The notes beneath the pieces were generated by a model that made no database searches, was not told where the DNA came from, and was given only the letters and a program-made list of their open reading frames with translations. This document shows, piece by piece, positions 24,155-52,819 of a DNA stretch of 64,000 nucleotides. The stretch covers positions 1-64,000 of the forward strand of contig CAIYTH010000053.1 of assembly GCA_903929135.1 (NCBI GenBank), in the 5' to 3' direction. Made by a program: the position numbers and the translations under genes. Source of the DNA: an uncultured Chlorobiales bacterium (lineage in GTDB: Bacteria; Bacteroidota; Chlorobiia; Chlorobiales; Chlorobiaceae). The first letter of the stretch is position 1. Every line of letters begins with the position of its first letter.

Positions 24155-25480
24155 TCAGCCCCGGCTGGCTTCGAGTTCCCGCTTCAGGGCCTCGCGCTCG
24201 ATTTCGAGGCGGCGCAGCTCGCGGTTGATGCGGTCCAGCTCTTCGGGCTCGCTGTCGATTTCGAGGCGCAGGCGAGCAGAGGCCTCGTCGATCAGGTCGA
24301 TTGCCTTGTCGGGCAGGAATCGGTCGGCGATGTACCGGTTGGACAGTTCCGCTGCCGCCACAAGCGCGGCGTCCTTGATCCGGACGCCGTGGTGGATCTC
24401 GTACTTCTCCTTCAGGCCGCGCAGGATGGAAACGGTGTCCTCGACGCTGGGCTGGTCGACAATCACCGTCTGGAAACGGCGTTCGAGGGCGGCGTCCTTC
24501 TCGATATGCTTGCGGTATTCGTCGAGCGTGGTGGCGCCGATGCAGCGAAGCTCTCCCCTTGCCAGCGCCGGCTTCAGGATGTTGGCCGCGTCCATCGAGC
24601 CCTCGGCCGCCCCAGCCCCGACGAGCAGGTGCAGCTCGTCGATGAAAAGGATCACCTCGCCTTCGGCTGCCTGCACCTCCTTGACCACGGCTTTCAGGCG
24701 CTCCTCGAACTCGCCTCGGAACTTGGTGCCTGCGACGAGGGCCGCGATGTCGAGCGCCGCCACCTGCTTGGATTTCAGGTTCTCGGGGACGTCGCCGCCC
24801 ACGATGCGCTGCGCAATGCCCTCGACGATGGCGGTCTTGCCGACGCCCGGCTCGCCGATCAGCACAGGGTTGTTCTTGGTGCGGCGGCTGAGGATCTGCA
24901 GCACGCGGCGGACTTCGTCGTCACGTCCGATCACCGGGTCGAGCTTGCCCTTGCGGACCAGGTCGTTCAGGTTCCTCGAATATTTTTTCAGCGAATTGTA
25001 GCTCTCTTCGGCATTCTGGCTGGTAACGCGCTGCGAGCCCCTGAAGGAGGCGAGCACCTTGAGGATGGCGTTCCGGTCGACGCCTGCGTCCTTCAGGATC
25101 TTCGACACCTTGACCCCTGCCTCGCTCAGGGCGATGAAGAGGTGTTCGGAGCTGATATAGTCGTCCTTGAGCTGTCCAGCCTCCTTGAGGGCCGTATCGA
25201 ACACCTTTCCGAGATCGCTGGAGATATACTGGCCGCTTGCCGACGCGCCGGTCACTTTCGGAAGTCGTTCAAGCTCGCGATCGACCACCGAAAGCAGCGT
25301 TTCGACGGGCGCCTCGAGCTTCCGCGCAATCTGGCAGGCGATGTTTTCGCTGTCGCCGAGCATGACGCTCAGCAGGTGTTCGGGCTCAACCTGCTGGTTC
25401 TGGCGGCTTCCGGCCAGCGACGATGCAGCCTGGAGGGCCTCCTGGGCCTTTACGGTAAACTTGTTCGGATCGAAATGCAT
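24155..25480 (-). CDS. clpB: ClpB N-terminal half: N domain plus first AAA+ domain
   Basis: A 441-aa protein equal to the first half of the disaggregase ClpB. Residues 1-145 are the Clp N domain ([16 protein letters not shown]). NBD1 follows with Walker A GEPGVGKT (209-216), Walker [12 protein letters not shown] and the sensor and arginine-finger region ERRFQTV. It ends at [19 protein letters not shown]...ELEASRG, about 30 residues into the coiled-coil M domain. Full-length ClpB is about 860 aa. The missing part is encoded at 51497-52819 on the opposite strand. The product could pair with that half or work as an unfinished NBD1 ring. Confidence 0.93.
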
Positions 25481-25654
25481 GGTTCGTTCGGTTCTTTCCT
25501 GTTTTCAAGAGTTATGGAGAAACGACCCGGGAAGGGCAACTTCCCGTGGCCGTTCCGGATCCCGTCGATTACATAACCTCGAAAACGGCAAAAAAATCAC
25601 CATGCGGCTCCGGAACGGGCCTTGCCTGCTGCCGGGCAATCCCTCCCTCCGGAG

Positions 25655-25942
25655 TCAGCGCTCTGCCGGAGGCTTGGACAGGTTCTGGAAGAAGGATGTC
25701 GTGATGACCCTCAGGATCTGGCCGCCGGTCACCAGAAGCTCTGCGCCCTTCTCCTTGATGTGCTGCTGGGTCGCGACCTGGTCCTTGAAAAAGTCGACGC
25801 TGGCCGGGTCGTAGTTCTTGCCCCTGACATAGTCGTCGATAAGCTCTTCAGCCTCGTCGAAAGGCAGGTTGAAGACCTTGAGGCCGAGTTTGGCCCGTTC
25901 GATGGGATCGAGGATCCTCTGCCCACTCTCTTGCTGCTCCAT
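25655..25942 (-). CDS. Conserved-looking small protein of unknown function
   Basis: A 95-aa soluble protein, charged and largely helical, with no signal peptide or membrane segment. It contains IERAKLGLKVFNLPFDEAEELIDDYV and ends in a more hydrophobic TGGQILRVITTSFFQNL. I do not recognise a family. It lies 174 nt upstream of the clpB N-half on the same strand, with no clear promoter or terminator between, so co-transcription is possible. The codon usage looks coding and the opposite strand has no better candidate. Confidence 0.65.
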   Translation of the reverse strand: MEQQESGQRILDPIERAKLGLKVFNLPFDEAEELIDDYVRGKNYDPASVDFFKDQVATQQHIKEKGAELLVTGGQILRVITTSFFQNLSKPPAER

Positions 25943-26049
25943 ATCGCTCCGGTTTTCTTCTGATGGATGGTAAATGGGGGCGGGCTGATGCCGCCTGTCG
26001 TGAATTTACTAAATAATATTCTGCTCAGGAAGCCACATGAACGCAGGTT

Positions 26050-50499: not shown

Positions 50500-50538
50500 A
50501 CCGAAAAACTGGAAAGAGCTCAAGGCAGTAGTGATTGG

Positions 50539-51369
50539 TTACCGTGAATGAATCGTCTGCACGCAGGCCTGAATCTGCAGCAGTTCCCTGATCATGGGTC
50601 CGAAATCTCCGAGCGCCACCTGGGTGGCCGAGTCGGACATGGCCCGCACAGGATCGGGATGCACTTCAAAAAAGAGACCGTCGATGCCGGTGGCTACCGC
50701 TGCGCGGGCAAGCGGCATCAGGAACCTCCGGTCGCCGCCGGAGGCGCCTGAAGCTGCGCCGGGAAGCTGTACGCTGTGGGTGGCGTCGAAAACGACGGGC
50801 CAGCCGGAATCTCCCATGATGGGGAGCGACCTGAAGTCGACCACGAGATTATGATAGCCGAATGTGGTGCCGCGTTCGGTCAGCATGATCTTCCTGTTGC
50901 CGGTCGAGGCGGCTTTTTCAGCCGCATAGGCCATGTCGCCCGGCGCCATGAACTGACCTTTCTTGATGTTCACCGCAAGGCCGGTCGAAGCTGCGGCCAC
51001 CAGCAGATCGGTCTGGCGGCAGAGGAAGGCCGGGATCTGGAGCACATCGACGTATGGCGCGGCAAGCTCGACCTCGCCGGTCTCGTGAACGTCGGTCAGG
51101 ACGGGCATGCCGAATGTCTCGCGTACTTCCGAAAGGATTTCGAGCGCTTCACGGTCGCCGATGCCGGTAAACGACGCAGACGAAGAGCGGTTCGCCTTTC
51201 GGTACGACCCCTTGAAGATGACCGGAACATGCTCCTCCTTCCGGATGCGGTCAAGCGCGGCTGCAACCTGAAGGGCCATATCGCGGCTTTCGATCAGGCA
51301 CGGCCCGGCGATGAGGAACAACCCCTTCGGGCCTGGAAGTTCAAGTGAACCGATCGTGAACTTTTGCAT
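50539..51369 (-). CDS. kdsA: 3-deoxy-8-phosphooctulonate synthase
   Basis: A 276-aa TIM-barrel aldolase condensing PEP with arabinose-5-phosphate to KDO-8-phosphate, the first dedicated step towards the KDO of lipopolysaccharide. The start [28 protein letters not shown] and [11 protein letters not shown] are family signatures. It diverges from the clpB C-half with 127 nt between. Confidence 0.96.
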
Positions 51370-51496
51370 GCGTTATCCCGTTAATCAAGAGAGCCGGAGA
51401 GAACAGGCGTCCGGCGCGTTTCATCATCTTTTTTCAAGCCTTCAATTTACACATTAATTTGTCTTTTCATCTGTCCGACAACAAGCCACCAGCACT

Positions 51497-52819
51497 ATGA
51501 ACACCGCAGACACCAGACAGCGGCTTCAGGATATCGAAAAGCAGATCGCCAGCCTTCGCGAGGAGCAGGTGACGGTCAAGGCGCGATGGGACGCCGAGAA
51601 AGAGCTGATACAAGCCTCGCGCCGCATGAAGTCCGAAATCGAGGAGCTTCGTGTCCAGGCTGAGAACTATGAACGCAGCGGCGACTACGGCAAGGTAGCC
51701 GAGATACGCTACGGCAAGATCGCCGGGCTCGAACACGAACTTGAGGAGAACGCCAGGAAGATCGATGCCAAGCAGGCTGCCGGAGACCTGATCATGAAGG
51801 AGGAGATCGATGCCGGGGATATCGCCGACATCGTCTCCCGATGGACAGGCATTCCCGTGAGCAAGATGCTCCAGTCAGAGCGGCAGAAGCTGCTCGGCAT
51901 CGAGGCGGAACTGCACCGCAGGGTCATCGGGCAGGACGAAGCCGTCAAGGCCGTCAGCGAAGCCGTCAAGCGTTCACGCGCAGGCATGGGCGACGAAAAG
52001 CGCCCCATCGGCTCCTTCATTTTCCTCGGTCCGACGGGCGTCGGCAAGACCGAACTGGCCCGAACCCTTGCCGAATACCTGTTCGACGACGAGGATGCCA
52101 TGATCCGCATCGACATGAGCGAATACATGGAGTCGCACACCGTCAGCCGGCTCGTCGGCGCGCCTCCGGGCTACGTCGGCTACGAAGAGGGCGGGCAGCT
52201 TACCGAAGCCGTCCGACGCAAGCCGTTCTCGGTGGTGCTGCTCGACGAGATCGAGAAGGCGCATCCGGACGTCTTCAACATCCTGCTGCAGATCCTCGAC
52301 GACGGGCGCCTTACCGACAGCAAGGGGCGTACGGTGAACTTCAAGAACACCATCATCATCATGACGAGCAACATCGGGGCACACCTGATCCAGAGCGAAA
52401 TGGAGAAGGTCGACGGCACGCCGTCGGAAGAGGCGCTCGCCGGCCTGCAGAAAAAGCTGTTCCAGCTCCTCAAGCAGCAGGTTCGCCCGGAGTTCCTGAA
52501 CCGTATCGACGAGATCATCCTCTTCACGCCGCTGACACGCGATGACCTCAAGAAGATCGTGACCATCCAGTTCAACCGCATCAGCGAGCTTGCCATGCGG
52601 CAGAGGATCTCCCTCACCATCACCGAAGAGGCCCTCATGTGGCTTGCAAGGACCGGATTCGACCCGGCTTTCGGCGCACGTCCGCTCAAGCGCGTCATGC
52701 AGCGCAAGATCACCAACCGCCTGTCGGAGATGATCCTTGGCGGTCAGGTGGAGGAGGGAGACACCGTCGAGATCGGCCTTGAAGGCGAGGCCATCACGAT
52801 GGCAAAAAAAGCGGCTTGA
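51497..52819 (+). CDS. clpB: ClpB C-terminal half: M domain remainder plus second AAA+ domain
   Basis: A 440-aa protein equal to the second half of ClpB. Residues 1-100 are the rest of the coiled-coil M domain ([18 protein letters not shown] ... [21 protein letters not shown]), followed by NBD2: [14 protein letters not shown], Walker A GPTGVGKT (178-185), [14 protein letters not shown] pore loop, Walker [14 protein letters not shown] and [11 protein letters not shown] sensor 2. Its start continues almost exactly where the product of 24155-25480 ends. Alone it lacks the N domain and NBD1. Own ATG and promoter region, divergent from kdsA. Confidence 0.94.

Follow-up and report, generated by a model that had tools for sequence, protein, structure and literature searches.

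A clpB gene naturally divided at the middle-domain distal loop in class Chlorobia, and its probable product, a two-polypeptide disaggregase

ClpB and Hsp104 are known as single-chain disaggregases, and a locus that appears to encode a ClpB in two pieces raises the question of whether the pieces still form one machine and of how the gene came to be divided. Such a locus lies in a 64,000-nucleotide stretch of DNA from an uncultured Chlorobiales bacterium (assembly GCA_903929135.1, contig CAIYTH010000053.1, positions 1 to 64,000; hereafter the window), in which two half-length clpB genes occupy opposite strands. We show that this is a naturally split clpB, and consider it likely that its products form an obligate two-polypeptide disaggregase, the assembly and activity of which we infer from sequence. 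The ClpB family profile, NCBIfam TIGR03346, has 853 positions and a curated cut-off of 1232 bits. The N-terminal product (N half) matches positions 1-430 with 668 bits and the C-terminal product (C half) positions 430-852 of 853 with 623 bits; each falls below the cut-off for a single-chain ClpB, and jointly they span the profile once, end to end. Pfam assigns Clp_N, AAA, and an AAA lid to the N half, and AAA_2 and the D2-small domain to the C half. When aligned with Escherichia coli ClpB (4d2q), N-half residues 7-437 correspond to 5-434 and C-half residues 6-431 to 437-851; against yeast Hsp104 the N half reaches 437 and the C half resumes at 440. Chance matches are ruled out by these scores and by the finding that 84 of 98 genomes of class Chlorobia carry both halves. 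A first-pass annotation, made from the letters of the window without database searches, had placed both open reading frames (ORFs) at the positions and on the strands given in Table 1, with the N domain and first nucleotide-binding domain (NBD1) in one and the M (middle) domain and NBD2 in the other, and all of this is borne out; its statement that no gap separates the halves holds to about two residues (434 versus 437 of E. coli ClpB).

Distributed across the two halves are the elements by which a ClpB/Hsp104 is recognized, namely two AAA+ modules, Walker A and B motifs, arginine fingers, sensor 2, and pore loops. All 24 aligned split rows (11 from Chlorobia and 13 from outside the class) keep both Walker A GKT and both Walker B DE motifs, the ERR arginines of AAA1, the NR of AAA2, and the sensor-2 GAR. 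Comparison of the window with six relatives gives NG86 ratios of nonsynonymous to synonymous substitution (dN/dS) of 0.04-0.09 (N half) and 0.09-0.13 (C half); gpsA, kdsA, gatB, and nagZ give 0.08-0.20. These ratios are rough in that some dS values exceed 1. On this sequence evidence, both halves are intact and under strong purifying selection.

The site of division is constant. Every one of the 24 N halves stops 2-13 residues past the position of E435, and every C half starts just ahead of the conserved helix L2 of the middle domain; in the window, the N half stops 6 residues past E435 and the ATG of the C half lies 8 residues ahead of conserved L2 (the numbering of E435, and of Y72 below, derives from the E. 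coli alignments of the two halves). The break is identical in all 13 rows from outside Chlorobia, and intact relatives vary in length at this L1/L2 loop. In AlphaFold single-chain models, made from 40 (N half) and 38 (C half) sequences and having a mean predicted local distance difference test (pLDDT) score of 80 and 89, respectively, one long helix closes the N half and two open the C half (residues in Table 1). With long helices on both sides of the break, the cut is placed in the turn between L1 and L2. The four-helix middle domain between AAA1 and AAA2 is present but divided, with L1 on the N half and the remainder on the C half, and the break is the distal loop between its helices 1 and 2. 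A study of Hsp104 reports that this loop (residues 430-446) touches NBD2 and that Hsp70-dependent disaggregation relies critically on it (PMC3887210). In E. coli ClpB, motif 1 of one subunit contacts motif 2 of its neighbor and thereby holds the ring repressed; motif 1 spans E410-Y455, the region of L1 and the start of L2, and its deletion leads to hyperactive behavior, while E432A is repressed and Y503D hyperactive (PMC4023160). The distal loop falls inside motif 1. The equivalent of E432, E435 of the N half, remains E in all 24 split rows, as against 22 of 26 full-length Bacteroidota sequences, and the equivalent of Y503, Y72 of the C half, is Y in 22 of 24. These counterparts of two regulatory residues therefore sit on separate chains in split ClpB.

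The source genome (62 contigs, 92% complete, not closed) shows neither a full-length ClpB nor any match over 1232 bits. A full-length clpB elsewhere in the same genome was the finding that the first-pass annotation had named as speaking against a split, and the search of the unclosed assembly returned none. One other large Clp protein is encoded there, an 848-aa ORF on contig C45 that carries a UVR motif and matches TIGR03346 in two pieces (459 and 499 bits), as do the ClpC-type proteins of other genomes; by these features it looks like ClpC. Both halves lack UVR, and neither has the form of a ClpC, a single chain of about 850 aa with that motif. The source genome also carries dnaK.

The class sample comprised 98 genomes from 9 genera and 4 families, of which 74 pass a filter of 90% completeness and 5% contamination. 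None of the 98 has a match over the full-length cut-off. The N half is found in 91 (all except G015, G018, G043, G076, G082, G091, and G094) and a near-complete C half (E < 1e-170) also in 91 (all except G006, G009, G017, G055, G061, G072, and G093); the two lists of absences share no genome, so that both halves occur in 84 genomes and a single half in 14. Both are present in 68 of the 74 filtered genomes and in all six single-contig genomes. The class-wide distribution implies that the split predates the last common ancestor of class Chlorobia.

In the machine that we propose, the N half (N domain, AAA1, and L1) and the C half (L2-L4 and AAA2) would be made as two polypeptides and would co-assemble through the L1/L2 coiled coil and AAA1-AAA2 contacts. 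The product would be a two-tier ring of six plus six chains, acting with DnaK as a ClpB disaggregase. Its likeness to single-chain ClpB/Hsp104 (TIGR03346; E. coli 4d2q, Thermus thermophilus 1qvr) lies in domain order, in catalytic and regulatory residues, and in the presence of a dnaK gene; it differs in that two widely separated genes encode it as two polypeptides, with the chain interrupted at the distal loop that joins helices 1 and 2 of the middle domain. The NBD1-M and NBD2 constructs of T. thermophilus ClpB are likewise two separate AAA modules, but there the M domain stays whole with NBD1 (PMC4239642, PMC3940203), whereas here the cut lies inside it (L1 / L2-L4). That difference is one of several points that weigh against an obligate two-chain disaggregase, and no reconstituted ClpB divided between L1 and L2 was found in the literature searched. 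In addition, the C halves of two sister-genus genomes (G024 and G029; L193, L195) have H at the Y503 position; 14 of the 98 class genomes have one half, including six of the 74 filtered (G006, G017, G015, G043, G076, and G094), perhaps through assembly gaps; G464, of the split family f39 outside Chlorobia, has neither half nor a full-length ClpB, only a ClpC-like and another Clp protein; and no CIRCE element occurs within the window.

One alternative is that the halves are now independent AAA+ proteins, with separate single rings and separate roles; the C half, for example, might act alone as an unfoldase. Animal CLPB, with its single AAA domain, offers a comparison for such a C half. Both halves are complete AAA modules that have a start and a stop of their own, caseinolytic peptidase B homologs appear among the matches of the C half only, and separate NBD1-M constructs are active ATPases (PMC4239642). 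We nevertheless regard independence as rather improbable, given that L1 and L2, partners in intact ClpB, are retained on the two halves, that the E at the E432 position is invariant among split rows, and that both halves persist together in the great majority of class genomes (84 of 98). Rejoining of the halves into a full-length ClpB by a trans-spliced intron or split intein has precedent in other split genes, such as cyanobacterial DnaE with its split intein. Here it is highly improbable: the halves end and start within residues of the break, neither carries an extra domain, and no Rfam family reaches its gathering score within the window. Least credible of all is that the halves are decaying remnants of a pseudogene. 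The joined gene has indeed been lost, but dN/dS values of 0.04-0.13, intact catalytic motifs, and class-wide persistence leave this explanation almost no probability.

Split ClpB is not confined to Chlorobia. The phylum sample comprised 394 genomes (98 Chlorobia and 296 others), 243 of which have a match over the ClpB cut-off. Among the 44 non-Chlorobia genomes with a best E-value above zero, which were re-inspected, 35 have both halves, two the N half only, one the C half only, one a frameshift (G239), two a contig edge or short frame (G260 and G262), and three no ClpB. The frameshifted gene (family f10, locus L293, in a single-contig genome) belongs to a full-length family; it resembled a split in place but was not counted as one, since the lesion lies in L1 and the rest is readable in another frame; the frameshift may be young or an error. 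One large class mixes full-length and split families: among the matches listed, 77 of 149 genomes exceed the cut-off and the N half occurs in at least 53. Four genomes, three with both halves (G224, G242, and G344) and one with the N half only (G257), also encode a divergent ClpB-like protein scoring about 740-760 bits. In six full-length families of the mixed class (L228-L232 and L234), clpB lies beside or close to dnaK; with crude ORF calling, dnaK was not called beside any split half in the regions taken.

In a wider comparison, among 80 best relatives from many phyla an end at the L1/L2 loop occurs only in two Chlorobi loci; five ORFs run off their contigs, and one from Zixibacteria (L147) stops later, at 483 aa. 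The latter was not counted as a half: its stop is an in-frame TAG, and the match runs on to profile position 597. Among the matches listed for the 132 genomes of the Zixibacteria phylum, at least 44 genomes exceed the cut-off and no pair of halves meets at the L1/L2 loop; the half-like pieces seen there are in G505 (1-479), G600 (442-852), and, overlapping, G613 (321-852 and 2-367). ClpB-like genes with an in-frame TAG occur in this phylum in G482, G484, G485, G486, and G487, and could reflect recoding, pseudogenes, or errors.

Outside Chlorobia, the split families used in the trees fall into group A (f17, f19, f24, f31, f32, f35, f48, f49, and f55) and group B (f39 and f47). In f47 the N half precedes the C half on one strand, 5.8-7.6 kb apart, in nine of nine genomes. 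Between the tandem halves of one of these, G327 (L209, 86-8583), lie five genes on the opposite strand, encoding a PAS histidine kinase, a family 2 glycosyltransferase, an epimerase, a methyltransferase-like protein, and a membrane protein-like product; G301 has the same five and two more. This layout looks as if DNA had been inserted into the loop or rearranged locally, and it suggests a mechanism different from a large inversion.

Two trees bear on the number of split events. The rpoB tree includes 47 genomes; the source genome is left out, its rpoB being interrupted by a contig boundary, and G096 and G227 are represented by part of the gene only. In these two genomes rpoB was matched in three (G096, L292) and two (G227, L291) adjacent pieces, which may be errors or true breaks. 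The split state appears in three clades of this tree, Chlorobia (support 100/100), group A (89/95), and group B (100/100), and at least three changes are needed (3-4 across bootstraps). The concatenated ClpB tree, built from 62 rows after exclusion of the loop columns, needs four changes (bootstrap 3-5). Chlorobia rows form one clade in the N-half, C-half, and concatenated trees alike, while split rows form a single clade in none of 200 bootstrap ClpB trees, and one clade of all split rows is rejected by the approximately unbiased test (p-AU 0.006). Splitting has thus probably happened anew, again at this loop, in one or two further clades of the phylum. Against several events it must be said that the starred, best-supported branches alone force only one change in the rpoB tree and two in the ClpB tree, that a clade of Chlorobia plus group A is weakly rejected (p-AU 0.034) and one of groups A plus B is not rejected (p-AU 0.066), and that the groups were defined with the trees already in view.

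One ancient split in the phylum, after which other lineages several times re-fused the halves or acquired full-length genes in their place, is compatible with the shape of the trees. It is the history that the one forced rpoB change and the result for groups A plus B would favor, as would the use of the same loop in all split lineages. Gene neighborhood also enters here. In five group A families (f17, f19, f24, f32, and f55; L207, L215, L219, L223, and L225) the C half adjoins gpsA, with plsY called beside it as well in f17, f32, and f55, and in Chlorobiaceae, the family of the window, gpsA-plsY lies 2-3 kb away on the other side of the C half. As proof of a common split this shared neighborhood is weakened by its distribution within the class: all 10 genomes examined from the window's family have gpsA and plsY close to the C half, and the nine examined from the other three families (f2-f4) show no such pair there. 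All outgroup rows used are full-length, the fusions or replacements needed would be at least as many as the cuts otherwise required and are presumably rarer, and the tandem halves of f47 fit a separate cut. A single split is on balance unlikely. Were recurrence at the distal loop adaptive, docking of the halves might itself switch ClpB activity; because deletion of motif 1 leads to hyperactive behavior (PMC4023160), tuning by L1 association or by the ratio of the halves is possible. This is a tentative idea that we think more probably wrong than right by a good margin.

It remains to account for the arrangement in the window, for which the first-pass annotation had proposed that 24.15-51.49 kb was inverted and that one breakpoint fell in the M-domain coils. 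Its observation that inverting the interval would rejoin the halves is geometrically correct and of little information value, because for every pair of halves on opposite strands some inversion exists that would rejoin them. In the window's genus, a distance of 21-34 kb separates the halves, which lie on opposite strands, in 7 of 21 genomes (G000, which is the source genome, G002, G005, G010, G011, G012, and G014); in G001, G016, and G019 they are farther apart, in six they lie on different contigs, and in five only one half was found. In the sister genus and the other families the halves are mostly on different contigs or far apart, and one f4 genome (G096) also brings both neighborhoods within 21-34 kb on opposite strands. 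Distances in the single-contig genomes, taken as circular, are about 253 kb (G001), 21 kb (G002), and 1.64 Mb (G086) on opposite strands and 95 kb (G016), 93 kb (G019), and 248 kb (G024) on the same strand, the last three making up half of the six. Placement thus varies across the genus, the sister genus, and the families, from which it follows that the split is older than the arrangement in the window.

Gene order was compared by tblastn with window proteins within Chlorobia, and by crude ORF calling, in which strand is sometimes wrong, in families outside it. Among 10 genomes of the window's family, gatB lies beside the N half in six (the window, G014, G012, G024, G029, and G035) and was not found by tblastn within the stretch examined in G002, G016, G001, and G019; elsewhere it is beside the N half in two of two f2, none of one f3, and one of six f4 genomes (G089). 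The pair kdsC/kdsA accompanies the C half in all 10 of the window's family, one of two f2 (G087), none of one f3, and, more loosely, one of six f4 genomes (G092). Relatives with the halves in unrelated places, the outcome that the first-pass annotation had itself set against its proposal, are therefore what the comparison found. The opposite strands, the fitting geometry, and the presence of the 21-34 kb layout in six other members of the genus favor inversion as the origin of the split, but the split occurs throughout the class and is older, neither interval nor distance nor strand is constant among genomes, and gatB by the N half and kdsC/kdsA by the C half recur in some genomes of other families. 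Such an origin is very unlikely; the arrangement is a placement of two genes already separate, and the 27-kb interval is no frozen inversion.

Half-length ClpB 1 and ClpB 2 entries of Chlorobaculum tepidum in UniProt, annotated as two ClpB proteins and not as halves of one, are probably the same two genes. No description of split ClpB in Chlorobi was found among the papers searched and the matches listed, and one may exist. Gupta and Lorenzini (2007) give C. phaeobacteroides as the sole Chlorobi species with the ClpB aligned there (PMC1887533), which suggests that the halves went unrecognized. It also hints at a full-length ClpB in C. phaeobacteroides, although none was found in any of the 98 class genomes searched. 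If the two-polypeptide disaggregase is real, the annotation of half-length "ClpB" proteins in green sulfur bacteria would change to two halves of one machine. The split offers a natural experiment on ClpB control, in which a widespread chaperone tolerates, and has seemingly fixed more than once, a break at the very loop presumed to couple the regulatory coil to the motor. The need for L1-L2 chain continuity in Hsp70-dependent disaggregation becomes testable, and the split would provide a ready two-component ClpB in which AAA1 and AAA2 can be combined in chosen proportions.

Table 1. The two clpB half genes and neighboring genes in the window (the last four rows are given for context only).
Feature	Position	Strand	Basis
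ClpB N half, 441 aa: N domain, AAA1 (NBD1), middle-domain helix L1; own start and stop	24155..25480	-	ORF, TIGR03346, Pfam, E. coli alignment, AlphaFold
Helix L1 (residues 413-440), final part of N half; contains E435 (= E. coli E432)	24161..24244	-	Alignment, AlphaFold
ClpB C half, 440 aa: middle-domain helices L2-L4, AAA2 (NBD2), D2-small domain; own ATG	51497..52819	+	ORF, TIGR03346, Pfam, E. coli alignment, AlphaFold
Helices L2 and L3 (residues 4-61 and 64-94), opening part of C half; Y72 (= E. coli Y503)	51506..51778	+	Alignment, AlphaFold
gatB, downstream neighbor of N half	21959..23416	-	
Two related genes upstream of N half, the second with a VWA domain	26050..28091	-	
kdsA-like gene (DAHP synthetase I family), divergent, upstream of C half	50539..51369	-	
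gpsA (NAD-dependent glycerol-3-phosphate dehydrogenase), near C half	54495..55520	-	

Terminator-like sites near the N half are no more frequent than expected by chance. The downstream neighbor of the N half is named gatB from its sequence, and the VWA-domain gene on its other side is presumably BatA/BatB-like.

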